Assembly (NCBI RefSeq): GCF_014646655.1
Contig: NZ_BMNR01000001.1
Coordinates: forward strand, 407,382-471,381
DNA: 64,000 nucleotides
DNA from: Yeosuana aromativorans
Lineage (GTDB): Bacteria; Bacteroidota; Bacteroidia; Flavobacteriales; Flavobacteriaceae
Direction of reading: 5' to 3'
Part shown: piece after piece, positions 7,722 through 32,730 of the stretch
Layout: each line of letters opens with the position of its first letter
Numbering within the stretch: position 1 is the stretch's first letter
Made by a program: the position numbers and the translations under genes
The notes under the pieces: generated by a model
The model's input: the letters and a program-made list of their open reading frames with translations, nothing else
What the model was told of the DNA's origin: nothing
Databases searched by the model: none

Positions 7722-7754
7722 GAAAAAACTAACTCAAACTAAACACTTAAAAAA

Positions 7755-9497: not shown

Positions 9498-9507
9498 GAT
9501 TCTAATT

Positions 9508-12663: not shown

Positions 12664-12677
12664 AATTGAGTTGTTAT

Positions 12678-14255: not shown

Positions 14256-14258
14256 ATT

Positions 14259-15578
14259 TTAACCTTTTATTAATTTTTTACTTAATTCTTCTAAAGGAAC
14301 CCCTTTGGTTTCCGGCATGATAAATATCACAAACAACAATTGCACAACCATCATAATGGCAAAAAACATGAAGACCACGCCTGCACCGATGCTTGCAAAC
14401 AAAGCAGGTACCAGAGATGGCACAACAGCAGCTAATACCCAATGGGTTGAACTGCCAAAGGATTGCCCTGAACCCCTTAAATGGTTTGGAAATATTTCAG
14501 AAATAAATACCCAAATTACGGTTCCCTGACCTACGGCATGGGCCGCTATAAACATAAATAGGAATATGGGCATGGAACTTCCTTCCCAATGAAAAAAGAA
14601 CGCACAAGACACTAGGGTCAAGGATATAATATAGCCCACAGAACCGATATACATCAATTGCTTTCTGCCTAATCTATCAATGAGATAAATTCCTAAAAGA
14701 GTGAATAGCATATTGGTTACCCCAACACCTATGCTACTTAAAAGGGCGGAGCTTTCGGCAAGACCTGCTTCAGTTAAAATTCTTGGTGCATAATACAGAA
14801 AGGCATTGATACCAGACAATTGATTGAAAAAAGCAATCAAAAAAGCCAATATTAAAGGGAAACGATATTTTTTAAGGAATATATTTTCGTTGGGAACTGT
14901 ATTGTCCATTTCATCCTTGATTTCTAACATCAGTGCTTCAGGATCTTTATCTGGACTTATTATTTGAAGCACTTTTCTGGCTTCATCATTTCTAAATTTA
15001 GTAAGCAGCCATCTCGGGCTTTTAGGCACTGTTAATGCGAATACAGTATAAAATGCAGCAGGAAAGGCTTCAACACCAATCATCCAACGCCAATCATTAT
15101 CTCCTACATTGTTCAATAAATAATTTGACAGAAATGCTATTAGTATTCCGAAAACAATATTAAATTGATAAAGGCCAACTAGTTTTCCTCTGTCTTTTGC
15201 AGGAGCAATTTCAGATATATAGGCTGGTGCTGCAATGGTTGAGGCCCCCACACCAAGCCCCCCAATAAATCTAAATACGGCAAATGTCCATGGGTCATTG
15301 GCCAACCCAGACCCTATAGCAGATACTGTATAGAGAACACCTATCCAAATCAGTGTGTTTTTACGTCCTATTTTATTGGTAGGAATACCACCAAAAAAAG
15401 CGCCTACTACAGTTCCCCATAGAGCCATTCCTATAACAACTATTCCGTGAAACATATCCGAAGATCCCCAAAGTAATTGTAGTTTTTTTTCAGCGCCCGA
15501 TATAACTACGGTATCAAATCCGAAAAGGAAACCAGCCAATGCGGCCGTAATGGACCATATCAATATTTTTTTGTTCAT
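14259..15578 (-). CDS. MFS sugar porter (probable fructose transporter)
   Basis: A protein of 439 residues with about 12 hydrophobic segments. Sugar-porter family signatures are visible: GFLFGFDTVVISG in helix 1, NKIGRKN in the helix 2-3 loop, PKSPRWLL after helix 6, QLSGINAFLYYAPRI in helix 7, DRLGRKQ in the helix 8-9 loop and PETKGVPLEEL at the end. It sits in the inner membrane and probably takes up fructose by proton symport. It is the first gene of the fructan operon and is preceded by a 348-bp control region. The arrangement of transporter, GH32, SusC/D and kinase matches the gene set of Bacteroides fructan loci, though the order differs. Confidence 0.94.
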   Translation of the reverse strand: MNKKILIWSITAALAGFLFGFDTVVISGAEKKLQLLWGSSDMFHGIVVIGMALWGTVVGAFFGGIPTNKIGRKNTLIWIGVLYTVSAIGSGLANDPWTFAVFRFIGGLGVGASTIAAPAYISEIAPAKDRGKLVGLYQFNIVFGILIAFLSNYLLNNVGDNDWRWMIGVEAFPAAFYTVFALTVPKSPRWLLTKFRNDEARKVLQIISPDKDPEALMLEIKDEMDNTVPNENIFLKKYRFPLILAFLIAFFNQLSGINAFLYYAPRILTEAGLAESSALLSSIGVGVTNMLFTLLGIYLIDRLGRKQLMYIGSVGYIISLTLVSCAFFFHWEGSSMPIFLFMFIAAHAVGQGTVIWVFISEIFPNHLRGSGQSFGSSTHWVLAAVVPSLVPALFASIGAGVVFMFFAIMMVVQLLFVIFIMPETKGVPLEELSKKLIKG

Positions 15579-15926
15579 TATAGTTTAGTTTTGTTATCGC
15601 CAAATTACAAGGAAAGTGAATTTCTGGAGTTTAGATTTGTAACAATAAGTTATGAATCTGTTAATGATTTCTTAACTTTGATATAATTAACTAAAAATCA
15701 GTATGTTACAATATTAACAATTTTAAAATTAAATTTTGGGTTTCAAAATTGTTACTTGATATATTCAAAATTGTTACCCTAAAATGAATCTAAGAAGTGT
15801 CAAATTCATAAAAAACATGATACATGTTTATTAATTTAACTGTTTTATGTATTCATTAAAAATAAATACACAAAAAAACAACCTATAAATTATTGAATTG
15901 CCAAATAAAAACGTGCTGTTATGGGT
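15579..15926 (-). promoter_or_regulatory. Control region between the hybrid regulator and the fructan operon
   Basis: A gene-free, very AT-rich 348-bp stretch. It must hold the fructan operon promoter on the minus strand; a TAATTTGG sequence near 15606-15613 (minus) is a weak -7 candidate. It also holds the direct repeats listed separately and a short inverted repeat AAACATG/CATGTTT at 15813-15829. No ORF or RNA gene is visible. Confidence 0.6.
15742..15777 (-). promoter_or_regulatory. Paired direct repeats, probable hybrid-regulator operator
   Basis: The 14-mer TTCAAAATTGTTAC occurs exactly at 15742-15755 and 15764-15777, 22 bp start to start, about two helical turns. AraC-type output domains of hybrid two-component systems bind such direct repeats upstream of susC-type promoters. 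The pair lies about 165-200 bp upstream of the MFS start codon. Confidence 0.65.
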
Positions 15927-18677: not shown

Positions 18678-18764
18678 TTCATACATTAATTGACAGATTT
18701 CTAAAGTAGAAATTTTTAAATGAATTTTAAGTTTTTGAGTCGCATATTTTAAAAAAAGGAAATA

Positions 18765-18801
18765 CAAAAAAGCCTCTATCTTCTTGAAGATAAAAGCTTT
18801 T
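18765..18801 (-). terminator. Terminator 1 of the tandem set
   Basis: On the minus strand a 13-bp stem AAGCTTTTATCTT / AAGATAGAGGCTT with two G-U pairs is followed by TTTTTT. On the plus strand the same positions would be C-A mismatches, so the hairpin is specific for minus-strand transcripts. Confidence 0.8.
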
Positions 18802-18841
18802 GTACAGAACATTGACCTATTATCGAACCAAATATTGAATT
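18802..18841. repeat. 41-bp unit, copy 1
   Basis: The segment from GTACAGAACATTGAC to ATATTGAATTT matches 18913-18954 at nearly every position (changes at three places and one inserted A). On the minus strand each copy sits directly upstream of a terminator. Confidence 0.85.
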
Positions 18842-18869
18842 TATTCAAAAGTTTGATGGATGATTTTTA

Positions 18870-18906
18870 AAAACAAAAAAACCTCCAACCAAAAAAGGTT
18901 GAAGGT
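18870..18906 (-). terminator. Terminator 2 of the tandem set, identical to the tRNA-Leu terminator
   Basis: On the minus strand the stem AACCTTCAACC / GGTTGGAGGTT (11 bp, one G-U pair) is followed by TTTTTTT. The hairpin is base-for-base the same as the one after tRNA-Leu at 32609-32640. Confidence 0.85.
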
Positions 18907-18920
18907 TCTACAGTACTGAA
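18877..18920. repeat. 44-bp direct repeat, left copy (att-like)
   Basis: An exact 44-bp match to 32609-32652 in the same orientation. It comprises a terminator and the last seven bases of tRNA-Leu (TACTGAA on the plus strand). Identity stops exactly after that, where the right copy continues into the tRNA body and this copy continues into the 41-bp unit. Confidence 0.9.
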
Positions 18921-18954
18921 CATTGACTTATTATCGAACCAAAATATTGAATTC
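18913..18954. repeat. 41-bp unit, copy 2
   Basis: Second copy of the unit at 18802-18841, here as GTACTGAACATTGAC to ATATTGAATTC. Its first eight bases overlap the 44-bp repeat, so it marks the junction between the repeat and locus-specific DNA. Confidence 0.85.
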
Positions 18955-18979
18955 TTTAAATATATAAGTAACTTTTTTG

Positions 18980-19011
18980 AAAACAAAAAACATCCAACCC
19001 AAAGGGTTGAG
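18980..19011 (-). terminator. Terminator 3, directly after the GH35-like gene
   Basis: On the minus strand CAACCC-TTT-GGGTTG is followed by GATGTTTTTTG. It lies about 25 nt past the stop at 19036 and is the natural end of the second PUL transcript. Confidence 0.8.
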
Positions 19012-19035
19012 CTATAGAATCACTTCTATCAATAG

Positions 19036-20688
19036 CTATCTCTCATAAGTAATTACCTTGTAGATTCCTGGAGTAATGGTTTTTTGCATTTTTGAAGGGG
19101 AATACGCATCCGGATCGCCTTCTTTTTTATTGATCTGGTCAATACCTTTACTGCTTTCAAATAGTCTTCCAAAGACCCTTAACCTAGAATTGTGGAAGGT
19201 TTCATCACCGTTCAGCATGCGGGTTGTTACCCAAGCACCATTTTCAAACCGTCCCTCAAATACTTGTCCTATATAAGCTGTAGTATCCCTTTTTTCTGAA
19301 TAGAAATATACGGATAAGTTCATTCCAATAATCAAAAATTCATTGGCATCCGTTTGAATGACAATGCCAAAAGATGGCTCATTGGGTTTTTCGTACATCA
19401 CTTTAATTTTGTAATCGCCCATATACAAGTCCTCATAGGTTTCATTGCCTTCTTTAAGCACTGCTTTCATGTTGCCAGTTCCCTGATATTTTAAAATGTA
19501 ATGTTGAATTTCATTCAATACACCATAGGCTTTTTTGAACACAAAATCATCACTGGCATCTTCAATGCCGAAAGGCGAAAAACAAATCGCATCGTGCGCC
19601 CCAAAAGCATAATAAGCCCGACCCATTTGTGCGGTTGATTCTGGGATTAACAAAGGATTATCGTCCCTATGGTACCTAGCCACAATCTCCTTGAAGTTGG
19701 GCAAATAAATGTCTGGTGATTGAACATCGATATTGGGCGCGGCCGCTTTCCAGATATCCATGACTCTTGAAACGGGACCGCCATTAGGATAAACTCCCGG
19801 TAAATCGTCTGGTTTCTGTACAATCCAAGCATTGACCATCATGGGCAAATTGTATTGCCCCCGGCCCGATTTTGCCACAAAATTAATGTACGTTGCATAT
19901 TGCCAAGTGGTGAAAAAGGCTTTGGCTTCGGGCGTATCTCCAAAAATTTCTTTCCATGTTCCTGAAGTTTTAAAGTTTGACTTAGACCAAGCATTACTAA
20001 CATAAGTGTCTAATTGTTTTTTGTTTTCCTTTAAATAAGTCATTAATGCTTTAGGAACTTCTTTTTCAAATAAATCAAGTGCAACTTTATTATAATCGAT
20101 GTCTTGGAACATGCCCACCTCATTTTCTGGTTGCATTAAAATAACGGTTTGGTCTGTGTCATATTCCTTAATATGTTTCATTAATTGCGTAAACGCTTTA
20201 GCATCGGCTATTTTGGTAGCTTCACAAAAAGGCGACAAAGTTTCTATTGCTTTGCCTTCTTTAGTTTTTACCCTAAAAAAACGCTTGGTGTCTTTTTTAA
20301 CCCACATTGGCGCATAACTAGATTCGCCATTTTTCCAACTGGCAAACCAAAGCAAACAGACTTTTAAATGATTCTCTTTGGCATTATCAATAATGGCATT
20401 AACTAATGTATAATCGAAAACACCTTCTTTGGGTTCAAATTGTTCCCAAGCAACCGATACAAAAACTGTGTTAAGATTCATGGCCTTCAATTTGGGAAAC
20501 AATGGCTTCATATATTCTGTAGTTGAAGCAGAGGAGTTGTGCAATTCACCAGCAATCATTAAATAAGGTTGACCGTTCACCACAAGTTGGGTTGCCCTAC
20601 CGTGTTTTGTAAGATAGGGCACCTTGCTTTGAGCAAACATTTGAAAGGATACTAATAAAAACAGGAATAGAACTTTTGCAATTTTCAT
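19036..20688 (-). CDS. GH35-like / DUF5597 beta-galactosidase-type glycosidase, secreted
   Basis: A protein of 550 residues with a signal peptide (1-20, ending MFAQ). It starts the (beta/alpha)8 barrel with the GH35-like segment LVVNGQPYLMIAGELHNSS (about 35-53), followed by LNTVFVSVAWEQFEPKEG. The clan A acid/base is probably Glu190 in QPENEVG and the nucleophile Glu350 in LLIPES. The C-terminal part (about 400-550) fits the DUF5597 domain found in this subgroup. It is likely an exo-acting beta-galactosidase or related beta-glycosidase in the periplasm. It is the last gene of the second locus, 78 bp after the T9SS protein with a hairpin between. The exact linkage cut cannot be read from sequence. 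Confidence 0.82.
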   Translation of the reverse strand: MKIAKVLFLFLLVSFQMFAQSKVPYLTKHGRATQLVVNGQPYLMIAGELHNSSASTTEYMKPLFPKLKAMNLNTVFVSVAWEQFEPKEGVFDYTLVNAIIDNAKENHLKVCLLWFASWKNGESSYAPMWVKKDTKRFFRVKTKEGKAIETLSPFCEATKIADAKAFTQLMKHIKEYDTDQTVILMQPENEVGMFQDIDYNKVALDLFEKEVPKALMTYLKENKKQLDTYVSNAWSKSNFKTSGTWKEIFGDTPEAKAFFTTWQYATYINFVAKSGRGQYNLPMMVNAWIVQKPDDLPGVYPNGGPVSRVMDIWKAAAPNIDVQSPDIYLPNFKEIVARYHRDDNPLLIPESTAQMGRAYYAFGAHDAICFSPFGIEDASDDFVFKKAYGVLNEIQHYILKYQGTGNMKAVLKEGNETYEDLYMGDYKIKVMYEKPNEPSFGIVIQTDANEFLIIGMNLSVYFYSEKRDTTAYIGQVFEGRFENGAWVTTRMLNGDETFHNSRLRVFGRLFESSKGIDQINKKEGDPDAYSPSKMQKTITPGIYKVITYER

Positions 20689-20711
20689 GATATATAATTT
20701 GATGGAATTTT

Positions 20712-20750
20712 AAAAATAAAGCCCATTTTAAATCAATGGGCCTTATTTTA
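20712..20750 (-). terminator. Hairpin terminator between the T9SS gene and the GH35-like gene
   Basis: Stem GCCCATT / AATGGGC with flanking AAAATAAA and TTATTTT, so it can act on both strands. It may end or attenuate transcription before the GH35-like gene. Confidence 0.65.
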
Positions 20751-20766
20751 AGTGGTACTATAAAAA

Positions 20767-21948
20767 TTAATTGAATATTATTTTTTTAACACCATAGACA
20801 TTGTCTTTATTTATCTGCAAAATATAAACACCTGTATTGTTAACTGCTTTTGAAGATTTGGTTCCGCGTATGGTTTCTTTCATTATCAGTCTGCCTTGAA
20901 TATCAAAAACATGTAGCTTTGTACCCATTTGATTTTTGGCAAAATTAATCCTGCCAGAAGCGTCAAAAAACACCCTTTCATTAAGTGGTTCGTAAGATTT
21001 CATACCCAACACCGATTGATTGGCAACATAAACATTATCCAAATAGATTATGGATGAACTGTTTCCTGCAGGCATGAATATAATCTTGTTGATCTCATTG
21101 CCCACGTGGCTGCTCAAATCAATACTGTATTCAGCCCACCCTGTGGTTGAGGCGGCATCATAGGTCAAATTGCCTCCCCATTGCCATGTACCGGAACTGC
21201 TTGTGTATTCAAACTGTAGTTGGCCCGGACCCACATTGCTGGGATTGTAGATTGAAAAATAAATCTTGTCACCGATCGATGGCGTGAAAGTTGGAAAATA
21301 TTGTATTTGGCTCCAATTAGATGGCCCTGTTGCCGCACTATTGGTACTGCCATTTACACTATCGGGGTTGGGGTTGGACACTTCAGAACCATCGGCAAAC
21401 CAAATCCCTGAAGAAGTCGATTCGTTGTAAATATAATTGGTTTGCGATACGTTCAATGATTGAGAACTAAAATATACATTATCCAAATAGACTATGGCAG
21501 AACTGTTTCCTGCAGGCATGAAAATAATCTTGTTGATCTCATTGCCCACATGACTGCTCAAATCAATACTGTATTCAGCCCAACCTGTGGTTGAGGCCGC
21601 ATCATAGGTCAAGTTGCCTCCCCATTGCCATGTACCGGAACTGCTTGTGTATTCAAACTGTAGTTGGCCCGGACCCACATTGCTGGGATTGTAGATTGAA
21701 AAATAAATCTTGTCACCGATCGATGGCGTGAAAGTTGGAAAATACTGTATTTGGCTCCAATTGGACGGCCCTGTTGCGGCACTTTTGGTACTACCGTTTA
21801 CACTGTCGGGGTTGGGGTTGGACACTTCAGAACCATCGGCAAACCAAATCCCTGAAGAAGTCGATTCGTTGTAAACGATTGTTTGGGACTGTATCGCCGA
21901 GGATAGTATCATGGCGAATAAAAAGAGAAACGTAATTTTAGATTTCAT
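20767..21948 (-). CDS. T9SS-secreted protein with two nearly identical CBM-like domains
   Basis: A protein of 393 residues. After a signal peptide (about 1-22) come two copies of one domain, residues 26-158 and 174-306, differing at only about three positions. Each starts YNESTSSGIWFADGSEV and ends IIFMPAGNSS..YLDNVY, a jelly-roll layout like carbohydrate-binding or galactose-binding domains, with several exposed Trp and Tyr residues. The last 75 residues are a T9SS sorting domain (LHVFDIQGRLIM, GVYILQI, VKKIIFN). It has no visible catalytic domain, so it is probably a surface or released glycan-binding protein. It sits between the PKD lipoprotein and the GH35-like enzyme in the second locus. 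Confidence 0.85.
   Translation of the reverse strand: MKSKITFLFLFAMILSSAIQSQTIVYNESTSSGIWFADGSEVSNPNPDSVNGSTKSAATGPSNWSQIQYFPTFTPSIGDKIYFSIYNPSNVGPGQLQFEYTSSSGTWQWGGNLTYDAASTTGWAEYSIDLSSHVGNEINKIIFMPAGNSSAIVYLDNVYFSSQSLNVSQTNYIYNESTSSGIWFADGSEVSNPNPDSVNGSTNSAATGPSNWSQIQYFPTFTPSIGDKIYFSIYNPSNVGPGQLQFEYTSSSGTWQWGGNLTYDAASTTGWAEYSIDLSSHVGNEINKIIFMPAGNSSSIIYLDNVYVANQSVLGMKSYEPLNERVFFDASGRINFAKNQMGTKLHVFDIQGRLIMKETIRGTKSSKAVNNTGVYILQINKDNVYGVKKIIFN
21030..21429. repeat. Tandem 444-bp-period duplication, copy encoding domain 2
   Basis: Coding DNA for residues 174-306 of the T9SS protein; it matches 21474-21873 with only scattered, mostly silent changes, pointing to a recent duplication or gene conversion. 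Confidence 0.9.
21474..21873. repeat. Tandem 444-bp-period duplication, copy encoding domain 1
   Basis: Coding DNA for residues 26-158 of the T9SS protein; the partner copy is at 21030-21429. The linker between copies (about 15 codons) is not repeated. Confidence 0.9.
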
Positions 21949-22065
21949 AATTTAAAGATTAAGATTAGACAATTATTTAGCTTCATTTTTTAGACTTAGT
22001 ATGTAAAGCCTCTATCAAATAATTATTATCATTTGATTATCAGGTATTTATATTTTTTTAATTAA

Positions 22066-23169
22066 TTATTGTGATTCCTTAAGAGAAATTTCATCAATAT
22101 AAATGGTGCCAGCTCCCGGTTGAATGAACTTGAACTGAACCCAAGCATTATTGGCTTTCCCCTCGGAGTAAATTTGCGTAAGATCGCCCGTTTGAAACGT
22201 GATGGTTTTAAAAGACCAATCACCGGTAACTTCCCTAATGGGACTGTACCACGCAAAATTGTGCCAGGACTGCTCATCACTTTGATTGGTCAGTTCTGCA
22301 GCGGTAACTTGGGTAAAATCATCGCTCTTTATCCAAAAGCTCAATTCATAGGTTTTGTTGCTTTCCAGAACGGCATTGGGGAACCCGGTGATCCCTTTGG
22401 TAAACAACTGGGATTCCACATTGGCGGCATTGATGACAATTTTAGCATAACCATCGGTCCCCAGGGCACCCCCACCGGGCGTATTTTCAACACTGAACAC
22501 CATGGCATCGGTGCCATTTGAAACCCATGATTCCCAAACATCTGTCGCTGTTTCAGACGCTTCAAAACCAAATACAGACCGCACGAACTGCTCGGTTCCT
22601 ACTTGAACATTAATGGTTTGGGTGTCAACCATCCCGTTTAGAAAGGTGACCTCCAAAGTACAGGCTACGGGGCCTTCTTGTGAAAATGTCACATTAACGT
22701 CTTGATTGGTAGAAGTAGCGGGCGTTCCGCCTGGAAATGTCCAAACCCTGGATGCCACACTTTTTGAGTTATCTGTAAATACAATAGGGCTTCCTGCATC
22801 GGTTTGGTAAGCGCTCACCTCATAATTTATCAGTCCACTGCCCACTTGAACATATAGTTCCTTGGATTGTGTGATTCCATCTGAAAAGGTATTCTCGATG
22901 GTACAGGTAATCAAGCCCACCTCTGAAAAACCAACACTAACTTCTTTGTCCGTAGATGAAGCAGGTGTTCCACCAGGAAATGTCCATTTTCTTGAAACAA
23001 CACCCGATGAATAATCTGTAAACAAAACAGGTTGTCCCAAATTGGTTTGTGTTGAACTCACATCGGGATCAAAAACAATCTCATCTTGATAGATATGATT
23101 TTCAACACAGCCTAAGAACAACAAAGCAAATGCTGGTAAAAAGGATAAAATTTTTGTTTTCATTATCAT
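22066..23169 (-). CDS. PKD-domain surface glycan-binding lipoprotein (SusE/F-position)
   Basis: A protein of 367 residues; ATG codons at 23169 and 23163 are both possible, and the second gives the cleaner signal MKTKILSF...LFLGC. Two PKD domains follow (about 40-112 and 115-193), each with the WTFPGGTPASST/ATST motif. Residues about 200-367 form a CBM4/16-like beta-sandwich (GTDGYAKIVI, KTYELSFWIKSDD, GTIYIDEISL). With no catalytic domain and a place after the SusD and GH144-like genes, it is best read as a surface glycan-binding protein. It starts 6 bp after the preceding stop codon, so it is tightly coupled. Confidence 0.85.
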   Translation of the reverse strand: MIMKTKILSFLPAFALLFLGCVENHIYQDEIVFDPDVSSTQTNLGQPVLFTDYSSGVVSRKWTFPGGTPASSTDKEVSVGFSEVGLITCTIENTFSDGITQSKELYVQVGSGLINYEVSAYQTDAGSPIVFTDNSKSVASRVWTFPGGTPATSTNQDVNVTFSQEGPVACTLEVTFLNGMVDTQTINVQVGTEQFVRSVFGFEASETATDVWESWVSNGTDAMVFSVENTPGGGALGTDGYAKIVINAANVESQLFTKGITGFPNAVLESNKTYELSFWIKSDDFTQVTAAELTNQSDEQSWHNFAWYSPIREVTGDWSFKTITFQTGDLTQIYSEGKANNAWVQFKFIQPGAGTIYIDEISLKESQ

Positions 23170-23175
23170 AATTTT

Positions 23176-25146
23176 TTAAAACGATTGTATCAAACTTTGC
23201 AAACTATTGTTAATGTCAGGATCGCTCCTGTAAAATTGGCTAATAATGTGTTGTTGATATTGATCTATTGCTAACGCCATTGAGCCAATATTGATGTCAT
23301 ACGGATTCCAATTGGGAACTGGAGTGTTTAGGTTTTGGGGCAAGTTGTTGATTCTTATATTGTCTGGCAAGCCCAAAAGCGGATGGAAATACCCCAAAGC
23401 CACATAAGCCCTTAATGCTTCCAGAGCCTTTGAGGGTACAAAAGGCAAGGCCAATGTGGCACCGTAAGGTGCTGGCGATTCTTGAATGACTTCACTTTGA
23501 TTAGCCCCCGAAACAAAAGACCCTTGATTACTGATGTAGTTATCCCAATTAACGAAACCGTTATTTTCTAAATTTGACAAGGTGCCACAGGCCGTAAGCC
23601 CCATCAACGGTTTGCCAAACCTTGATTGTGATGCCGTTGCATCCATCGTAAACGCGCTGGTACTATTGGTTTTGTAAGGTTCAACGGGACCTGTCCAGAG
23701 TTGCATCCAATTATATGTGAAGCCAGCACCAAACCAACTTACATAGTACCCATTTTTCTTTTCTCTAACTATTCTATTTAAATCAAGATTATTAGCTTCT
23801 CCAGAAGCTAAGGCCTCTAGATAGACCAATTCTGTTTCTTCTGAAAAGGCATCACCCCAAACCTGTCCGTTTTTTTGGCCGTTAGCGGCATTCATTCCCT
23901 TGGAGATTCTTCCGTATTTATATGAATCATTGGCATCATTGTAAATGACTTTTTCCCATTGGGGCCTGTCCAACAATTCATTGCATAACTGTAGCATATC
24001 ATCCTCTGAGGCATACCGCTGTCTGACCGCTCTCAAACCTGCTGCGCAAATGGCCCAATCTATGGTACTAATGGCAGCAGCATTATTTTGAAATAGGCCA
24101 GTACCATTGGCATTATAGTAGTGCAGAGGAAACCCATAAATACCACCTGAACCATCAAACCAATTTTGGGATTGCTGCCATTTGAGCATGGCGAATATTC
24201 GGTCTCTTACTTGTTGCGAATCCATCAAATGGGCGTCCTCGGCAAGTATATAGATGGCATACGCATAACCCATACCCGACAAAGATACCCTAGAGGTTTC
24301 ATCAGCCGATTCGAGCACCACCCCTCTACCATCACCCAAATCCTTGTAATTCCATAAAAAATAATTGATACTTGATTTTTTAAGCCATTCCAACAATTGG
24401 ACATCATCAACCGGAGGTTGAAAAGGTTGGGTATTTCCATTTTCCAAGTAAATATCATCTATTCCAATCGCCCCTTTTTTAAATGTCGATAAGTCTTGGT
24501 TTTTACCTTCAATTTTAAAAACTAAATGATGTAAATTTTGATCGTTAATAGACATTATAAAGGACTTCATTTCTTTGGTCGTTACCTCAAAGTCTTCACT
24601 TTTAATAAGATCTCCATTTATGCTATAGGCTTCCAACGTCAACGTTATGGACACGTCGTAACTAACGGCCTTAAAACTTACTCCGCTTAAGTTCTGTAAA
24701 AATGCACCGGGCACGGGCACGGGGTTAACCAATTTTCCGTATAGGGCCAAAACAAATTCAAAATAGTCGCTTTCTTTATTAATTCCCTCAAAGGATATTT
24801 TTTGCATGGCATTATAGCCATTCCTTATAATTTCTGATGATACCTTCGTGTATTGACTACTTCTGGTAACCCATTCTGAATTAACCTCGGTGCTTCTATT
24901 TTTTCCCATATCAGCCGTATATATGGCAATACCAGGATCATGATTGGGCGCGGCATATTCAGGAAGCACATAAGGTCCATCGGATGGCTGGTTACCTCCC
25001 CCTGTGCCTCCAATGGGGTCTGGCATAGGTGTTTTTCCAACGTCCCCTGAGCTACTACAGCTTGTAGTTAAGCACAAGAGGCACACCATCAGAAATTTAC
25101 TGATTTTTATGTTATTTGAAATACTATGTAGATAATATGGCATCAT
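23176..25146 (-). CDS. GH144-like / glucoamylase-domain glucanase lipoprotein
   Basis: A protein of 656 residues with lipidated Cys30 (LTTSC). Residues about 60-230 form a beta-rich N-terminal module. From about 245 to 640 the sequence fits the glucoamylase-like (alpha/alpha)6 domain (PF10091) used by GH144 endo-beta-1,2-glucanases: WLKKSSINYFLWNYKD, RVSLSGMGYAYAIYILAE, WFDGSGGIYGFPLHYYN, SEETELVYLEAL, APYGATLALPFVPSKALEALRAY and WNPYDINIGSMALAIDQYQ. The Ser-rich stretch after Cys30 agrees with surface display. It is the only endo-type candidate in the second locus and so best defines its substrate; beta-1,2-glucan is the leading guess but other beta-glucans are possible. It follows susD by 10 bp. 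Confidence 0.8.
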   Translation of the reverse strand: MMPYYLHSISNNIKISKFLMVCLLCLTTSCSSSGDVGKTPMPDPIGGTGGGNQPSDGPYVLPEYAAPNHDPGIAIYTADMGKNRSTEVNSEWVTRSSQYTKVSSEIIRNGYNAMQKISFEGINKESDYFEFVLALYGKLVNPVPVPGAFLQNLSGVSFKAVSYDVSITLTLEAYSINGDLIKSEDFEVTTKEMKSFIMSINDQNLHHLVFKIEGKNQDLSTFKKGAIGIDDIYLENGNTQPFQPPVDDVQLLEWLKKSSINYFLWNYKDLGDGRGVVLESADETSRVSLSGMGYAYAIYILAEDAHLMDSQQVRDRIFAMLKWQQSQNWFDGSGGIYGFPLHYYNANGTGLFQNNAAAISTIDWAICAAGLRAVRQRYASEDDMLQLCNELLDRPQWEKVIYNDANDSYKYGRISKGMNAANGQKNGQVWGDAFSEETELVYLEALASGEANNLDLNRIVREKKNGYYVSWFGAGFTYNWMQLWTGPVEPYKTNSTSAFTMDATASQSRFGKPLMGLTACGTLSNLENNGFVNWDNYISNQGSFVSGANQSEVIQESPAPYGATLALPFVPSKALEALRAYVALGYFHPLLGLPDNIRINNLPQNLNTPVPNWNPYDINIGSMALAIDQYQQHIISQFYRSDPDINNSLQSLIQSF

Positions 25147-25156
25147 GTTAATTTTT

Positions 25157-26893
25157 TTAATTGTAACCAGGGTTTTGTTCTAGATTACTTTTCAGAATTT
25201 CCTCAATAGGAATTGGCCATAAATAATGACTCGTTGGAAAACTTCTTTTGCCGGTTCCACCCTCAAAATAATAGTACCTGTAAGATTTGGCTCCGGTATT
25301 GGCGTCTTTCTTTACCTGGACCGCAATAATATCCTTAGCAAAATCTGCTTCAGCATCCAACCATCTGCGGGCATCATACCACCTATTGCCTTCAAAAGCC
25401 AATTCTATTTTTCTTTCATGCTTGATTTTTTCCAACAGATTGCCCGATGCATCAATGGGAGGCATGTTAACACTACCCCTAGATCTTACCTTGTTGACAT
25501 ATTCCACAGCCATAGGAAAATTATTCAAGTGATATTGGGCTTCTGCATAGGTCAAATAAAATTCAGCCAACCGCATATATATCCATGGTTGATGACTGGA
25601 TACACCAGCGTTTAACGACCAGCTTTCATCTAAAGATTTTCTAATACCGTAGCCCAGCATACTACCATTCCACCAAAAATCTACATTGGTATTTCTACTG
25701 TCTTTACCTCCATCCCAAAACTCCAAATCTCTATCTTTAAATGTTGTTCCATCATACAACACAGAATATCGAAGTCTTGGGTCCCTGTTTTGGTAAGGAT
25801 TGCTCGGGTTGTAATTGGTGGCCTTAGGATTGATAATGGGTGTTAAGTTATTGGGGCTGCCGGTATAACCCAAAACTGGTATCTCTCCGGAAGTTGTCTC
25901 ATATTGATCCACAAATTCCTGTCTGGGGTTTTCACTTATCCAACCACCGTCACCATTAGGGAAACGCCATTCGTCTATACTTTGTCCTCCCCTGTAATGA
26001 TAATAGTAATCTGATAACACATCTACGAGCTCAAAGCCGTACTGACCTAAAAACTGCTTAAAGAAAATCACACCTGAATCCATGGGGTTCAAAAACAAGC
26101 CCGGGTAATCATTTGATAGGCTGTACTGATTTAAATTGAACAATTCTTCACAGGCCTGGGAAACTTTTTGCCATCTGGTCTGGTCATTGGTTTTGTTAAA
26201 AAGTGGGCTGGCGTCAAACATCAAAGCCCTTATTTTTAAACCAATAGCCGCCCCTTTGGTAATCCTTCCAAAATCCTCACCAACGGCCTCGTCTCGATTA
26301 GGCAAATCTTCTATGGCTTGATCCAATTCATCAACTATAAATTGCACACATTCATTAAACGAAGCCCTGGGGACATTGAAATTTGAATCCAAATCAAATG
26401 TCTTCTTGATTAATGGTACGCCACCATATCTTGAAATGAGCTCAGTATAGAAATAAGCCCTCAAAAACCGGATTTCGGCAGTAAGTTGTTTAATCCGCTC
26501 TTGCTCCCCACCTTGGTAACTGGATATTTTTTCAAGGAAAATATTGTCATTTCTTATGGCTGTGTAGGCATCCAACCAAAATCCATTAAAATAATACATG
26601 TTCAAGGATCCCGATGTAAGACCTCCTTGGGTATATTTATCCAAAAACCTTGCTTCATGCATATGGTAGCTTTCATCGGTAATACCCGTCATACGCAACC
26701 CTCCGGCCCATTTACAAAAACCATGTGGCAACTCATCATACCTGTCATTAACGTAAAGTTCAATAAGGTTTAAATCTTGCCAAACATCAGCTTCAGAAAT
26801 AGCATCCAACGGCTTTAAATCTAAAAAGTCCTTGTTACAAGCCGTCATAGATAACATTAAAACCAGGATTATATAAAACTTTATTTTTTTCAT
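25157..26893 (-). CDS. susD: SusD-like glycan-binding lipoprotein (second locus)
   Basis: A protein of 578 residues with lipidated Cys19 (MTAC) followed by NKDFLDLKPLDAISE, a standard RagB/SusD start. Typical segments are AEIRFLRAYFYTELISRYGGVPLI, YMRLAEFYLTYAEAQYHLN, VNKVRSRG, IKHERKIELAFEGNRWYDARRW and LWPIPIEEI with a C-terminal NLEQNPGYN. It partners the STN-SusC encoded 10 bp upstream in capturing and passing on the glycan product of the GH144-like enzyme. Confidence 0.96.
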   Translation of the reverse strand: MKKIKFYIILVLMLSMTACNKDFLDLKPLDAISEADVWQDLNLIELYVNDRYDELPHGFCKWAGGLRMTGITDESYHMHEARFLDKYTQGGLTSGSLNMYYFNGFWLDAYTAIRNDNIFLEKISSYQGGEQERIKQLTAEIRFLRAYFYTELISRYGGVPLIKKTFDLDSNFNVPRASFNECVQFIVDELDQAIEDLPNRDEAVGEDFGRITKGAAIGLKIRALMFDASPLFNKTNDQTRWQKVSQACEELFNLNQYSLSNDYPGLFLNPMDSGVIFFKQFLGQYGFELVDVLSDYYYHYRGGQSIDEWRFPNGDGGWISENPRQEFVDQYETTSGEIPVLGYTGSPNNLTPIINPKATNYNPSNPYQNRDPRLRYSVLYDGTTFKDRDLEFWDGGKDSRNTNVDFWWNGSMLGYGIRKSLDESWSLNAGVSSHQPWIYMRLAEFYLTYAEAQYHLNNFPMAVEYVNKVRSRGSVNMPPIDASGNLLEKIKHERKIELAFEGNRWYDARRWLDAEADFAKDIIAVQVKKDANTGAKSYRYYYFEGGTGKRSFPTSHYLWPIPIEEILKSNLEQNPGYN

Positions 26894-26903
26894 TTGTTCT
26901 TTT

Positions 26904-29900
26904 TTAAAATGTTAAGCTAAGACCTGTTGATAATAATCGTTGTTGTGGATAAAACCATCCTGTTGACGAACTGCTCTCGGGGTCATTGATTTTTACCTTG
27001 TCGTAAATGATCAATAGATTATGTCCAGACACAAAAAACCTTAAGCTATCAAGTCCTAGTTGGTCCAAAAGTCTTTTATTGAAAGAATAGGACAGCTCAA
27101 CGTTTTTAAGCCTTAAAAAGGAATTGTCCTTGATCCAAATGGTGGACACCTCCCTAAAACTACTACTAGCCGTATCAAAGGCAGCTGGATACTCTGCATT
27201 GGGCGTTCTTAAGGCAGACCGCCATCTTTTTTCATAAAACTCAGATTGTTGGTTAATATCAAAAGGCCTGTAAATGGTCTGTGCCTGGGCCTGGCCTTGG
27301 AACAATATATTCAATGAAAAATCTTTCCACTCCAACCCCATGGTACACCCATAAACAATTTTAGGCGTGGGTGAATTTTGTAAGATGATTTGATCCTGTT
27401 CATTAAGCACCCCATCATTGTTTTTGTCAACAATCCTGACATCACCGGGCTGGGCATCAGGGAAATGGACCGAATTGTCAATCTCATCTTGATTTTGGTA
27501 AATACCGTCTGCTTGATACAACAAAATAAAATCTACTGGTTTGCCCGTTCTGCGTTGCCATTCCGGCACATTGGGCGGCTCATCAATAAAGATTATTTTA
27601 CTTTTGGCATAGGTAAATTGTCCTCCTATGGAATATTTAAACTCTTTAATGTTGTTTCTGTGCAGTACTTGGGCATCAACCCCCTGGTTGGAAACCCTCC
27701 CTATATTTTCATCGGGTAAGGTCAAGCCTGAATACACCGGTACCGAAGCATTTCTTGGTGCCAAAATATCTGAACGCTTTTCATAAAACGCATCAATGCT
27801 CCCGTCCAATAACCCTCTCTTTAAAGAAAAGTCCAGCCCTAAATTTATTTTTTCTGAAGTCTCCCAAGTAATATTGGGATTGGGGGTTGTCCCTGGGGTC
27901 AAACCATTAACTCTATTGGGGTTTTCCCCAAAAATATAGGAGTTGCCTATGTTGTAAATTTGAAGATATTGAAAATTATCAACCCTATCATTTCCCAACA
28001 GCCCCCATGAGCCTCTTATTTTTAACTCGTTTATCAGGTCGCTTTTGAAGAAATGTTCTTTGGATATCCTCCACCCCAATGTGACCGCGGGGAAAAACCC
28101 AAAACGTTTACCTTTCGGAAAATTTGCGGAACCGTCATAGCGCATGGTAATATCGGCCAGATATTTGTCATCATATCCGTAGTTTAATCTACCAAAATAA
28201 TTTTGCCTAGCCGTTTGAAAACCCTTTCCACCATTCTCTTTGTTTTCATCGGAGCCGCTAAATAGATAGGGGATATCTTCTGAAATCAAGTTTTGACGTG
28301 AAGCAAAGATATATTCCCCTTTTTGTTGATATTGTTCGTAAGCTATGAACGAACTGATGTTATGCTTTCCAAACTTTTGGTCGTACCCCAATTCAAAGTG
28401 AAAGGTTTTATTGAGTTCTTCTGAAAATTGTTGAAATAAGGAAATATTGCCCGTTTGATATTTTAAATTAACATAAGTTCTTGTTGTTTCATCGTATTGA
28501 TATTGGTCAAAAGGTTTAGAAAGGTCTTTTCTGGTAGTTGTGTAATAATCAATGGCTGCATAGCCTTTGGCATAAAGGCCCTTGGTTATGAAAGGCAAAT
28601 CCCAGTGCAATGAAAACTTCGAGTCAAATTTTTTGGTCTTGGTATTTTTGTTTCCGCTGTCACCATTAACCAAGCTAATTGGATTTCCAGAGGACGTTTT
28701 TGCTAGGAGTCCATTTTCAAAATAAGGAAACTCATAAGGCGCTTGAACAAATATTTGCCTAATGAGACCATCAGTATCTAGAGTTGGTCTATGATTATTT
28801 CCAAAACGTCCCGACAAATCAAAACCTAATTTAAGGTTTTTAGCCAATCGGGTATCAATATTTGACCTCATGTTGTATTGTTTGTACCCGTAGGCGTCAC
28901 CTGTGTAAATGGCATCTTGGTTTAAAAATTGTCCTGAAAGATAAAATTGTGTCTTTTCATTGCCTCCCCTTATGCTTAAAGCGTGTTGTAGTTGCGGGGT
29001 CCATTTGCTTGTAACCACATCCCACCAATCTGTATCTGCCCATTGGGAGCTGTCTATGCTTCCATCACGATATTGTCTAATGACATCTTGAAACTCCATA
29101 GGCCTTCCATTCCTGACATTGATTTCGTCAATCCATGTTAAATACTGACGGGCATTCATTAAAAATGGTCTTCTGGTAGGTTGGGCTAGTGAATAGCTTT
29201 GATTATAAGTGAATTGCGTTTTTCCTTCCTTTCCTCTTTTGGTGGTAATAAGTATGACCCCGTTGGCCGCTTGAGCACCATAAATGGCTGCAGAGGCATC
29301 TTTCAAAACAGAAATGCTCTCAATATCATTTGGGTTCAATCGCTCAAAACTACCTCGGTTGGGTATACCATCAATAACATATAGTGGCGTGTTGTTCCCC
29401 GTGGTTGCAATTCCTCTTATCAAGGTTGTTATTTCATCACTACCTGGCTCTCCACCTCTTGAGTTGATAATAAGCCCTGGGATGCGTCCCGTGAGATTAT
29501 TTGCTAGGTTGGCTGTTTGGCTTTCTTGAATTTCATCCGTTTTAATATCAGAAACCGCCCCGGTAAGGGTCACTTTTTTCTGAGTACCATAGCCTACCAC
29601 TACCACCTCATCAAGACTGGCGGCATCTTCTTTTAAAACGACCGTGATTTGGGTTTCTCCCTGCAAAGCAACCTCTTTTGTTTTGTAACCCAAATAGGAG
29701 ATGACCAATGTTGGGGCTTTACCCTTAATGACCAAATTGAATTTCCCATCAAAATCGGTTTGTGTTCCATTATTGGTCCCTTTTTCAATAATATTGGCAC
29801 CTGGCAAAGGTTGCCCGGCATCATCAGTCACCAGACCTTGTATGATATATTCTTGAGGTTTCAACGGCGTTTTTCCCTTGGTTTTTTCCTTAATCAAAAC

Positions 29901-30248
29901 GGCATTGTTCTCTGTGACACTAAATTCGAAATCACCAGATGACAAGCTTCGCCTTAACAGTTCATTGGCGCCTATGGTTCCCTTTTTTAATTGAACTTTT
30001 GGCAGCCCATCAAAAATCCCCTCTTCATAAAAAAAGGTATAATCGGTTTGATCCATGATCAAGTCAAAAACTTCATCAACAGTAAGCGTTTTATCTTCAA
30101 GGATTTTAATTTTTGAGTTTTGAGATAAAGCACTTTTTGGAGTTAAGGCAAAAACTACGGTACAGCATAAGAATATGAATGTTCTCATAATGATTAGTAA
30201 AAACCATTTTCTGTCAAGCAGACAGGAACGGATTAGTTTAATTTGCAT
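26904..30248 (-). CDS. susC: SusC-like TonB-dependent transporter with STN signalling domain (second locus)
   Basis: A protein of 1114 residues. The long N-terminus (RKWFLLIIMRTFIFLCCT) is usual for STN-type SusC proteins. An STN/secretin domain occupies about 45-125, a carboxypeptidase-regulatory-like domain about 133-215, then a TonB-box-like DEVVVVGYGTQ, plug motifs (NLTGRIPGLI, IRGIATTGNNTPLYVIDG, YGAQAANGVILITTKRG) and a barrel ending STGLSLTF. The STN domain is the part that contacts a FecR anti-sigma factor, and fecR lies directly upstream, so this transporter probably both imports the glycan and reports it. There is a structured 138-bp leader between fecR and this gene. Confidence 0.97.
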   Translation of the reverse strand: MQIKLIRSCLLDRKWFLLIIMRTFIFLCCTVVFALTPKSALSQNSKIKILEDKTLTVDEVFDLIMDQTDYTFFYEEGIFDGLPKVQLKKGTIGANELLRRSLSSGDFEFSVTENNAVLIKEKTKGKTPLKPQEYIIQGLVTDDAGQPLPGANIIEKGTNNGTQTDFDGKFNLVIKGKAPTLVISYLGYKTKEVALQGETQITVVLKEDAASLDEVVVVGYGTQKKVTLTGAVSDIKTDEIQESQTANLANNLTGRIPGLIINSRGGEPGSDEITTLIRGIATTGNNTPLYVIDGIPNRGSFERLNPNDIESISVLKDASAAIYGAQAANGVILITTKRGKEGKTQFTYNQSYSLAQPTRRPFLMNARQYLTWIDEINVRNGRPMEFQDVIRQYRDGSIDSSQWADTDWWDVVTSKWTPQLQHALSIRGGNEKTQFYLSGQFLNQDAIYTGDAYGYKQYNMRSNIDTRLAKNLKLGFDLSGRFGNNHRPTLDTDGLIRQIFVQAPYEFPYFENGLLAKTSSGNPISLVNGDSGNKNTKTKKFDSKFSLHWDLPFITKGLYAKGYAAIDYYTTTRKDLSKPFDQYQYDETTRTYVNLKYQTGNISLFQQFSEELNKTFHFELGYDQKFGKHNISSFIAYEQYQQKGEYIFASRQNLISEDIPYLFSGSDENKENGGKGFQTARQNYFGRLNYGYDDKYLADITMRYDGSANFPKGKRFGFFPAVTLGWRISKEHFFKSDLINELKIRGSWGLLGNDRVDNFQYLQIYNIGNSYIFGENPNRVNGLTPGTTPNPNITWETSEKINLGLDFSLKRGLLDGSIDAFYEKRSDILAPRNASVPVYSGLTLPDENIGRVSNQGVDAQVLHRNNIKEFKYSIGGQFTYAKSKIIFIDEPPNVPEWQRRTGKPVDFILLYQADGIYQNQDEIDNSVHFPDAQPGDVRIVDKNNDGVLNEQDQIILQNSPTPKIVYGCTMGLEWKDFSLNILFQGQAQAQTIYRPFDINQQSEFYEKRWRSALRTPNAEYPAAFDTASSSFREVSTIWIKDNSFLRLKNVELSYSFNKRLLDQLGLDSLRFFVSGHNLLIIYDKVKINDPESSSSTGWFYPQQRLLSTGLSLTF

Positions 30249-30297
30249 AAATTTGTAGTGTTAGTTTAGTTATTTAATTACTTGCTAATAAGACCTT

Positions 30298-30339
30298 GAG
30301 GGTAAAGTGGTAATCTTTGGCGAGACAAACTTTATCCTC
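30298..30339 (-). promoter_or_regulatory. Structured leader between fecR and susC
   Basis: Arms GAGGATAAAGT and ACTTTACCCTC (minus strand) form an 11-bp stem with one mismatch around a 20-nt loop, about 50-90 nt upstream of the susC start. In the plus direction the same stem is followed by a T-run, so it could instead block antisense reading. Confidence 0.45.
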
Positions 30340-30386
30340 TTTTTTTATTATTTCATGATGATTATTCTTTAATGTTAAAAAATGGC

Positions 30387-31559
30387 TTATCTTATAATGA
30401 TTGTTTTATCGGTTATCTCATAGTTATTTATGGTACTGGATTTCATAATGGATAATATTTCTTCAATACTTTGGTTCTTATTCAAGTTACCCTTAAACTT
30501 TAAAGACTCCAAAGACTTGTTTTCAAAAACGACTTGAACATCGTACCATCTTGCTAACACTTTCATGATCTCTTTAAGTGATTTGTCCTTAAAACTGAAC
30601 AGGCCTCTTCTCCAAGAAGTTTCAGTATCAACATTTACCTGTGAAATGGCCAAAGTATTGTTTGTTAAGTTCAGTTTTGATTGCTGGTTTGGTGCCAATA
30701 TTTTATTGCCTGACGAAGTACTGATGGCTACCACCCCTTTGACCAAAGTGGTATAAATTTCAGATTCATCCCTGTAGGCCTTTATATTAAATTCTGTCCC
30801 TATCACTTCTACTTTTTGGGATTTATTGTACACCTGGAATTTGGCTCCTTTGTGTAAAGTACTTGGAGAAACCTCAAAGTAAGCCTCACCATAAACCAAC
30901 TCTACTTTTCTTGTTTCTCCCTCAACAAAAGCTACTGGATATTTTAATTGGGACTCAGAATTTAACCAAACCTGGGTGCCGTCAGAAAGTTTTATAAAAA
31001 ACTGTCCCCCTCTAGGTATGGTCAAATAATTGTAGGCGATATCCTTGGGTTTTGTTTTATTCCCTTTATAAACAATCTCCTCACCGTTACTAATGGCGTT
31101 TTGGGTTTTTACCTCGTTACCTTTTTCTAAAGCAATCTGAGACCCATCCTGCAACGTAAGGGTTGCTTTATCGGTTCCAGGCACAATATTGTTTTTTACA
31201 TCACTCACTTTGTTTTGGTCAGAAGACGTTTGAGAATTAAATAAATCTCGCCTTATGGTGTAGGCAACAGCAAAAATCCCTACCAGAACAGCGGCAGCTA
31301 CATATTTAAAAGCTGTTGTTCTGTAAAATCTATGGAACAATGGTTTATCCCTTTTGATTTCTTTTAAAAGCCTATCAAGCACCCTGCTTGAATCTGGATC
31401 ATTTATACTGTAGATCACCGCATAATGGGTCTGCACATAGGCCTTGAACAGCTTTTCATTTGCAGGGGTTTCTATCCATTCAGAAAGTATATCCAGATCA
31501 GTTGATGTTGCTGATTTAGTGATATATTTTACGATGATTTTTTCTATTTTGGGAGTCAT
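30387..31559 (-). CDS. FecR-family anti-sigma factor
   Basis: A protein of 390 residues. The cytoplasmic part (1-80) would hold the sigma factor; one transmembrane helix follows (about 85-102, FKYVAAAVLVGIFAVAYTI). The periplasmic FecR domain (about 180-285) has YLTIPRGGQFFIKLSDGTQVWLN, GEAYFEV and VEVIGTEFNIKAY. The C-terminal DUF4974 domain (about 318-390) has RRGLFSFKDKSLKEIMKVLARWYDV and ends YEITDKTIIIR. It is divergent from the ECF sigma gene and upstream of an STN-SusC, completing a transporter, anti-sigma and sigma relay. Confidence 0.96.
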   Translation of the reverse strand: MTPKIEKIIVKYITKSATSTDLDILSEWIETPANEKLFKAYVQTHYAVIYSINDPDSSRVLDRLLKEIKRDKPLFHRFYRTTAFKYVAAAVLVGIFAVAYTIRRDLFNSQTSSDQNKVSDVKNNIVPGTDKATLTLQDGSQIALEKGNEVKTQNAISNGEEIVYKGNKTKPKDIAYNYLTIPRGGQFFIKLSDGTQVWLNSESQLKYPVAFVEGETRKVELVYGEAYFEVSPSTLHKGAKFQVYNKSQKVEVIGTEFNIKAYRDESEIYTTLVKGVVAISTSSGNKILAPNQQSKLNLTNNTLAISQVNVDTETSWRRGLFSFKDKSLKEIMKVLARWYDVQVVFENKSLESLKFKGNLNKNQSIEEILSIMKSSTINNYEITDKTIIIR

Positions 31560-31693
31560 TTAATACCTTTTGATCTTTACTATATTACAAAGCAAAAACT
31601 AACAACCCTTACTTTTTTGATAATTATTTTTAGTTTGTATTGATAATTTATGATATTTACACACTGATTAATGTGGATTTATAGTTTTTTATC

Positions 31694-32290
31694 ATGGCTT
31701 TTTCATACATCAATAATGAAAAACTAATTGAACACCTTAAAAAAGGTGATGAGAGTGCCTATGCCTATTTGGTATCAACCTACCATAAAAAATTGTTTGT
31801 ATATGCACTAAGCCTCAACAATGATCACGCTACTGCCGATGATATTGTTCAAAATGTTTTTTTAAAGACCTGGGAGTACAGAAATCGCCTTAACCCAGAT
31901 TATTCGATAAGCAGCTTTTTATATAAAACCACTTATAATGAATTTATCAACCAGTATCATAAATCCAGAGCTATTTCAAACTTAGAACGCAGCTACATTG
32001 AAGCCCTTGATACTGCCATTGATGAAGACAACAAAGACGTCATGGAACGTAAGATTGCTTGCGTAACCGAGGGTATTAAACACTTACCTCCCAAATGCAA
32101 GGAAACTTTTTTGTTGAGCAAGAAAGAAGGGCTCACCAATATTGAAATTTCGGAGTATCTAAACATCTCAATCAAAACGGTTGAGGGTCAACTTACCAAA
32201 GCCTATAATCTATTGCGCCAGCGCGTTGGGGACCAATTGAAAGAAATCTTATTTTTCTTTTTTGGGAAAACTAAACAAAACAGGATTTAG
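31694..32290 (+). CDS. ECF RNA polymerase sigma factor (Bacteroidetes family 1)
   Basis: A protein of 198 residues. Region 2 covers about 20-85 (YAYLVSTYHKKLFVYALSL, DDIVQNVFLKTWEYRNRL) and region 4 about 130-185 (LPPKCKETFLLSKKEGLTNIEISEYLNISIKTVEGQLTKAY, a helix-turn-helix). It lacks region 3, as expected for ECF factors. It diverges from fecR across a 134-bp gap that must hold promoters for both. It probably drives the susC-to-GH35 genes when the glycan binds SusC. It is the outermost gene on this side of the 44-bp direct repeats. Confidence 0.96.
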   Translation: MAFSYINNEKLIEHLKKGDESAYAYLVSTYHKKLFVYALSLNNDHATADDIVQNVFLKTWEYRNRLNPDYSISSFLYKTTYNEFINQYHKSRAISNLERSYIEALDTAIDEDNKDVMERKIACVTEGIKHLPPKCKETFLLSKKEGLTNIEISEYLNISIKTVEGQLTKAYNLLRQRVGDQLKEILFFFFGKTKQNRI

Positions 32291-32608
32291 TTTCATATTA
32301 TTTTTTGGTAAATAACATCAATTAATTCTATACTTCTTAAAATTCTCGGATTCCTTAAAAAATTTCTATTAAGACTTAATCAGCATTACTAGGATAATTA
32401 TTTTCTACTAAAAAAGGATAAGGCTAGCAATAAGTTCCAACGTGATGGTTTTGAGTTTACTCCAGCCTGTGTATTTAGCCTTGTATCTATACAATTAGAT
32501 TAAAGTAATCCGTTTTTTTTCTGGACAAGCAAAATTATATTTAATACAAATCGTTAACTTAATCCATTCACTAAATCAAGTTTAGACCAACATATTTTTT
32601 TTGAAAAC
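32291..32608. other. Gene-free AT-rich stretch between the sigma gene and tRNA-Leu
   Basis: A 318-bp stretch with no convincing gene, promoter or RNA. An open minus-strand frame at 32408-32494 (28 codons ending LELIASLILF) could be a coding remnant but is too short to judge. With the right copy of the 44-bp repeat it forms the right margin of the second locus. Confidence 0.5.
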
Positions 32609-32652
32609 AAAAACCTCCAACCAAAAAAGGTTGAAGGTTCTACAGTACTGAA
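32609..32652. repeat. 44-bp direct repeat, right copy (tRNA-Leu tail and terminator)
   Basis: Exact match to 18877-18920 in the same orientation. The last seven bases are the 3' end of tRNA-Leu; the remainder is spacer and a minus-strand terminator (stem AACCTTCAACC / GGTTGGAGGTT followed by TTTTTG) that ends the tRNA transcript. Confidence 0.9.
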
Positions 32653-32730
32653 GGCGGGACTTGAACCCGCACGGCCATAATGGCCATTGGATTTTAAGTC
32701 CAACGTGTCTACCAATTCCACCACTTCAGC
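32646..32730 (-). tRNA. tRNA-Leu (anticodon UAA)
   Basis: An 85-nt class II tRNA. The acceptor stem is GCTGAAG / CTTCAGT with discriminator A. The anticodon stem TTGGA / TCCAA encloses CTTAAAA, giving TAA. A long variable arm (TGGCCATTATGGCC) and the T-arm GCGGGTTCAAGTCCCGC are clear. CCA is not encoded. It is transcribed after tRNA-Gly from the same promoter, and its 3' end forms part of the 44-bp direct repeat. Confidence 0.97.

Follow-up and report, generated by a model that had tools for sequence, protein, structure and literature searches.

Cassettes of the staphylococcal cassette chromosome (SCC) type carry cargo that is moved by large serine recombinases (LSRs) and stack at the end of one essential gene. 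The closest precedent for the locus that we describe is provided by the Dehalococcoides ssrA islands and their serine recombinase DsiB, for which PMC3146451 records features that recur below: the islands belong to serine recombinases and occupy a structural RNA gene, they form tandem stacks, many of them lack an integration module, and the recombinase gene has a 3′ end that overlaps the attachment site and reads into the RNA gene; the authors suggest that the recombinase is fully functional only on the circle, and the same text names the Ccr serine recombinases of SCC-type cassettes. Also similar are the cis-mobilizable elements (CIMEs), which, as described in PMC5704250, lack integration and transfer genes, keep attL- and attR-like ends, are stacked at one site and are known mainly as derivatives of integrative and conjugative or mobilizable elements in Firmicutes. 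A survey of LSRs (PMC10083194), which by Pfam domains concerns the same enzyme family, handles targets as protein gene clusters, and the accessible portion of it contains 0 occurrences of ‘trna’. Here we analyse a stretch of 64,000 nucleotides from Yeosuana aromativorans (Flavobacteriaceae; contig NZ_BMNR01000001.1, positions 407,382 to 471,381; hereafter the window), in which a polysaccharide utilization locus (PUL1) lies between two copies of a 44-bp direct repeat, the right one at a tRNA-Leu(UAA) gene. We suggest, with a probability of roughly 0.77, that PUL1 is the cargo of an island that was integrated at the 3′ end of this tRNA gene by an LSR that is now missing, most likely one known from relatives.

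The initial annotation of the window had claimed an exact 44-bp repeat in one orientation, a right copy made of the tRNA-Leu(UAA) 3′ end and its terminator, a PUL filling the 13.7-kb interval and no integrase inside, and all of this was borne out. The two copies (18877–18920 and 32609–32652; start-to-start distance, 13,732 bp) are identical on one strand and not extendable. With up to 3 mismatches allowed, the 44-mer has 2 matches in the window and 0 in 100 shuffles, and only these two copies exist genome-wide: a whole-genome search with positions 18700–19100 returned, beyond self, the right copy as the sole strong match (expectation value (E) 5.6e-18; next, 0.029). Given the position that ARAGORN assigns to the tRNA gene, the right copy consists of its last 7–8 bases plus the terminator; the left copy runs on, beyond the shared terminator, into another conserved sequence, the left end (LE). 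Pfam domains of the interval (a GH35-like protein with DUF5597, a PKD protein, SusD, a SusC-like protein with TonB plug and CarbopepD domains, FecR and an extracytoplasmic function (ECF) sigma factor, with no match for two of the eight proteins) comprise the SusC/SusD pair, regulator and glycoside hydrolase that define a PUL. The G+C content between the repeats is 38.5%, versus 35.4% to the right.

The candidate enzyme comes from relatives (genomes are denoted by handles such as G074, contigs by, for example, G004:C12). In one island of G074 and two of G100, the tRNA-side end is an LSR frame that enters tRNA-Leu antisense at GTA; from stop to stop these frames comprise 534 (G074), 563 and 536 (G100) codons, they cross the hairpin just before the core (KRDKSNKSDLSH in G074), and the proteins contain Resolvase and Recombinase domains, as do all 10 proteins scanned. 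The LE starts with the GTA or GTG codon of the LSR in the same frame (for example, V-HHIDLFSNQTLELFQNLAEDF followed by a stop); in the window, the in-frame readings are VQNIDLLSNQILNLFKSLMDDF, ending in a stop (LE1), and VLNIDLLSNQNIEFFK... (LE2). Across 21 LE sequences, which are related to each other, 66% of the codon differences in the LE motif are synonymous, whereas none of the other five frames exceeds 31%, which fits a sequence that varies like coding sequence in the LSR frame. Since the LE thus resembles a displaced C-terminal tail of the LSR, the final codons of the LSR gene are the probable location of the attachment site of the element (attP).

Antisense tRNA genes are also common beside other LSR genes of the family. 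A search for the LSR clade matched 24 of 249 genomes at 30 loci, of which 29 were examined (L455, the second piece of a broken gene, was left out); with the longest frame taken as the LSR and at least 480 codons required, 23 open frames were obtained. Eighteen of them overlap or adjoin an antisense tRNA gene (17 by the rule of the script plus L445, the frame of which continues past tRNA-Arg), namely Leu (UAA, CAA, GAG), Arg (ACG, TCG), Lys, Asn or Met. The remaining five are one frame cut by a contig end, two that end in VAGTGLEPVTFGL, as in the tRNA-Met cases, yet have no predicted tRNA, one that ends in a tRNA-like fragment and one without a tRNA. In a Pfam-based set from 14 genomes, such overlap or contact with an antisense tRNA is seen for 8 of 13 LSRs, which brings in Phe and Arg(TCT) as well.

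We propose that, in relatives that retain the enzyme, attP would be arranged within the LSR gene as LSR body, in-frame terminator hairpin, core GTAC and a short C-terminal tail that runs to the stop. Recombination at this core, which the final bases of the tRNA gene form, would set the LSR body and hairpin against the tRNA, the incoming hairpin would act as the new tRNA terminator, and the tail (that is, the LE) would end up on the opposite side of the island, following the old terminator that had been displaced. Under repeated insertion, elements would stack and older ones would lie ever further from the tRNA, an order that would account for both the 44-mer and the left-end stack of the window. 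There, the left 44-mer sits among related units with 111-bp spacing (18802–18879 and 18913–18990 are 71% identical), in the order U0 hairpin, which we read as the displaced old terminator, U1 (18802–18912) and U2 (from 18913). On this view, the left 44-mer would be the terminator of the older resident U1, and the incoming element would have brought the right 44-mer as its own terminator, which would explain why the repeat is mostly terminator. Of the window island, LE2 and the right end (RE) would remain (Table 1) and the LSR gene would be gone, making the island CIME-like; its movement would require factors supplied in trans or recombination of one end with the other. From the sequences, their order and frames, the PUL-free sites and the LSR positions, we infer that the insertion was catalysed by an LSR, that tRNA transcription ends at the hairpin, that the tail has a function and that the island is still movable.

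Table 1. Features of the locus, in window coordinates.
Feature	Position	Strand	Remark
Small lipoprotein gene	3544–3774	plus	Chromosomal flank marker left of both PULs; G003 homolog 71% identical
PUL2	3977–18848	minus	Rhamnosidase-like, PfkB kinase, SusD, SusC, GH32, sugar transporter, hybrid two-component regulator
U0 hairpin	18766–18801	minus	Like the tRNA-Leu terminator of G001 and G003 (GCCTTT type); comparison by eye
LE1	18802–18870	plus	Core GTAC and in-frame tail VQNIDLLSNQILNLFKSLMDDF with stop
Left 44-bp copy	18877–18920		U1 terminator hairpin, core GTAC and following bases
LE2	18913–19017	plus	Putative left boundary of the PUL1 island; GTAC core, then VLNIDLLSNQNIEFFK... read in frame to a stop
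PUL1 cargo	19036–32290	FecR minus, ECF sigma plus	GH35-like, two proteins without Pfam match, PKD protein, SusD, SusC, FecR, ECF sigma
RE	32598–32652		Putative right end of the island; includes the right 44-bp copy (32609–32652)
tRNA-Leu(UAA)	32645–32730	minus	Target gene; last bases form the core; ARAGORN

Sites that lack the PUL support insertion, and relatives include a PUL-free junction of the kind that the initial annotation had proposed to look for. In G004, of the same genus, sequence homologous to 18767–18919 (that is, the left units) is joined directly to tRNA-Leu, tRNA-Gly and mutS; the contig begins about 590 bp to the left of this junction, which places the far flank beyond it. Simpler PUL-free sites occur in G001 and G003, where tRNA-Leu is followed by a GCCTTT-type, U0-like terminator only. 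In G003, the lipoprotein gene homolog lies about 640 bp and waaA about 1.0 kb from tRNA-Leu, whereas 66.7 kb separate waaA (C1:372148–373353) from the start of tRNA-Leu (440026) in the genome of Y. aromativorans (G000), suggesting that both PULs and further sequence to the left are insertions in a variable region. This region (C1:373354–440025, which includes window positions 1–32644) also holds galactose, sulfatase and SusC/SusD-like genes.

The claim of a PUL-bearing island is thus supported for PUL1, which is not alone: as the lipoprotein gene is near tRNA-Leu in G003, the neighbouring PUL2 would have been inserted too, as an older insertion between the lipoprotein gene and tRNA-Leu. PUL2 is located elsewhere in G003 and G001, and no LE was found at its left edge near 3.8 kb. 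In G003:C37, the PUL2 block is flanked (40465, 56145) by a different end type, VERTEKMSNLLISELEKF, the core of which appears to resemble that of the tRNA-Met LSRs. This contig carries a cassette stack with such ends at 30648, 40465 and 56145 and an LSR at 2086–3723, and ends of the same type surround a 14.4-kb block in G004:C11 (89170 and 103617). A 656-amino-acid protein of PUL1 has homologs in 3 of 198 genomes, namely its own, G002 (66%) and G098 (60%); in G002, the PUL1 homolog block is flanked by an LE-like sequence (C88:13768) and, where the contig ends, by an RE (28768). Within PUL1, an internal duplication (21080–21875; offset, 444 bp; exact stretches of 131, 70, 29 and 26 bp) falls in the open reading frame 20767–21948.

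Other islands share the layout of the window. A 28-base LE pattern with up to 3 mismatches, searched in 299 Flavobacteriaceae genomes, gave 22 matches in 14 genomes, grouped into 18 sites; the reversed control pattern had no match among the matches listed. By eye, most sites come after a hairpin or after a further unit, less clearly so at two or three of them. From 9 of the 18, an antisense tRNA-Leu is reached rightward at 4.6–42.8 kb, as in the window: tRNA-Leu(UAA) in the window (13.7 kb), G100 (27.5 kb) and G150 (4.6 kb), and tRNA-Leu(CAA) in G088 (4.6 kb), G175 (25.1 kb), G312 (25.6 kb), G100 (28.8 kb), G073 (35.5 kb) and G074 (42.8 kb). Judged by eye from sequence beginnings rather than with Pfam, the cargo comprises SusC/SusD-like and glycoside-hydrolase-like genes (G312), sugar-catabolism-like genes (G175), a regulator pair (G088) or pilus-like and plasmid-like genes (G073). 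In the genome of Y. aromativorans itself, an Arg-type LE (VNHIDLTSNQILELFKNL; C4:423673–423738) has sulfatase-like and SusC/SusD-like genes to its right and, over the 45 kb that remain of the contig, no tRNA; this locus is possibly a second PUL island.

Islands with these ends do not always retain a recombinase. LSR-free examples are found in G088, G312, G175 and G073: in a search that covered these four genomes and that of Y. aromativorans, PF07508 had no match at E 0.01 in G088, G175 and G073, and the two matches of G312 lie outside its island. None of the PF00589 matches falls within the islands of the window, G088, G312 or G175. G073 and G175 retain an LSR-type hairpin beside the tRNA, and G073 has an extra piece that resembles, by eye against G074, an LSR 3′ end. 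The window island likewise keeps LE and RE and no recombinase, with an LE-type end behind a displaced terminator and opposite an antisense tRNA, and its ends agree with those of LSR-bearing islands in sequence and order, as far as sequence comparison alone can tell. Because no LSR runs into the tRNA antisense, we regard it as a derivative rather than an autonomous member; tblastn of five LSRs against the window gave no gene piece beyond the tRNA antisense itself. No PF00589 or PF07508 match falls in the window and Pfam revealed no relaxase or conjugation gene among the PUL1 and PUL2 genes, in line with the lack of integration and transfer genes that defines a CIME. By analogy, the window element would work like a CIME of a related kind of system.

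Several observations weigh against this interpretation. No LSR is present in the window and PF07508 has no match in the genome at E 0.01, so the enzyme is deduced from relatives. The left end bears a decayed second hairpin without a core (18985–19013), which LE2 overlaps and which suggests that the island may be composite. For LE codons 4–17, only 29% of differences are synonymous, versus at most 21% in other frames, and 9 of 300 column shuffles score as high, which makes this a weak coding test. In G264, the LE meets tRNA-Leu(CAA) only at 87 kb, and 8 of the 18 LE sites (two each in G310, G233 and G195, one each in G296 and G003:C9) run into a contig end within about 0.6–20 kb; for these missing right ends, LSR 3′ remnants at the start of two other G195 contigs, at tRNA-Leu(UAA) and tRNA-Leu(CAA), and an LSR at tRNA-Leu(UAA) in G233:C60 are what the model predicts. 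Tyrosine recombinases occur in two LE-bounded islands (G073, with three PF00589 matches inside, and G004:C12), and the G098 homolog of PUL1 has no tRNA, LE or RE within 59.7 kb, implying that the PUL also exists outside such islands. Finally, cargo-less 111-bp units, considered below, are not explained by the model.

A rival reading is that a terminator unit on incoming DNA recombined homologously with resident U1 at tRNA-Leu, with no recombinase at that step. In its favour are the identity of the 44 bp between unlike flanks, the presence of such units at several positions in relatives, the decayed U2 that separates U1 from the PUL, and the lack of an LSR in the genome. We nevertheless consider this route unlikely, given that 44 bp of homology is short for homologous recombination, that LE and RE mark the exact limits of the island, as they do in LSR-bearing islands, and that the same order is found in stacks elsewhere. 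Clearly less probable still is the usual tyrosine-integrase island, with its integrase lost or elsewhere. The genome contains 16 PF00589 matches, none of them in the window, and the genus offers an example with ECF-PUL cargo at tRNA-Leu(CAA) (G004:C12:217137–248836), a 31.7-kb tyrosine-integrase island with an 18-bp repeat and ECF, FecR and SusC-like genes; however, the window element contains no integrase gene, its far side is an LE that tracks the LSR frame, and its repeat, mainly terminator, takes in just 7–8 bp of tRNA, whereas the 18 bp repeated in G004:C12 reach into the T-arm. The island at the tRNA-Leu 3′ end that the initial annotation had proposed is supported; the classic tyrosine-integrase picture is not. 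The G004:C12 island, which was also considered as an autonomous element, is instead a separate tyrosine-integrase island beside a 111-bp unit. A terminator copied without integration of the PUL, as similar terminators after tRNA-Arg genes in G002 and G005 might suggest, is highly improbable, being largely refuted by the PUL-free relatives with left units joined to the tRNA (unless those sites are deletions); the LE behind the left copy and the restriction of the PUL1 marker protein to the three genomes also speak against it. A 44-mer recurring as a terminator at many loci, which the initial annotation had named as a sign against integration, is absent from the genome beyond the two copies; similar terminators do occur at several places in relatives, which counts in part against integration, but many of them are further copies of the same end units.

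Several other identities for the LE were tried and rejected. In a permissive RNA-family scan of 13 loci, only tRNAs and one DUF805 RNA elsewhere in L268 exceeded the gathering score (seven weaker matches, six of them from a single hairpin region of L240 and the seventh from L268, fell below it), and a scan of the window gave its two tRNAs only; a structured RNA was dropped once the LSR frame had been found. As a phage or plasmid protein tail, the 24-amino-acid peptide had no tblastn match in plasmids and phages; the exact 22-base pattern was in 0 viral contigs, a degenerate pattern was in 36, none LE-like in context, and plasmids searched at the DNA level yielded 3 weak matches, in enterobacteria. 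The long frames that were read out among the weak LE matches were unrelated by eye (PheS-like, histidine-kinase-like).

The cargo-less unit of 111–112 bp (tail and terminator) has full-length matches in five genomes (G000, G002, G004, G006 and G100) of a survey with a model of it, which gave any match at E 0.001 in 21 of 149 genomes, and the unit recurs in G150; U1-like units occur within the genus at tRNA-Leu(UAA), tRNA-Leu(CAA) and tRNA-Arg genes. In G100, eight equal-scoring copies of the 112-bp Arg-type unit are present on C1, five in tandem away from any tRNA found (3301790–3302339), two in tandem at tRNA-Arg(TCT) (2820862–2821075) and one alone (3287884). Chance deletions in larger elements would not on their own yield such conserved small units. 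We raise, as a tentative idea that is more doubtful than not, that the unit, made up of recombinase tail, terminator hairpin and tRNA-end core, is itself mobile, as a mini-element that depends on a recombinase: it would hop from one tRNA gene to another, rebuild the tRNA end and its terminator at each insertion, multiply in tandem and provide ready ends through which whole PULs are exchanged as cassettes. The rtT repeats of Escherichia coli tyrT are likewise tandem, each with a tRNA 3′ end and downstream sequence, and to our knowledge have no link to a recombinase tail.

In contrast to the Dehalococcoides islands (PMC3146451), the present system uses tRNA-Leu and other tRNA genes, has its core in their last bases and carries PUL cargo; its in-frame hairpin would be able to replace the tRNA terminator, and its displaced tail is recognisable as the LE. 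SCC-type cassettes, unlike the window island, target a protein gene and replace no tRNA terminator. We did not find this arrangement described for Flavobacteriaceae or with PUL cargo there, in literature searched mostly without subscription papers, which is no proof of absence.

The movement of PULs among marine Bacteroidota is poorly understood because many PULs carry no mobility genes. Here, the ends of a PUL island without a recombinase are readable and can be matched to a clade of LSRs at tRNA genes across Flavobacteriaceae, and the LE offers a search signature for cargo islands that integrase-based tools would miss. An LSR gene whose final codons contain both its site of attachment and a substitute terminator for the tRNA would further predict an enzyme whose C terminus differs between the circle and the integrated state.

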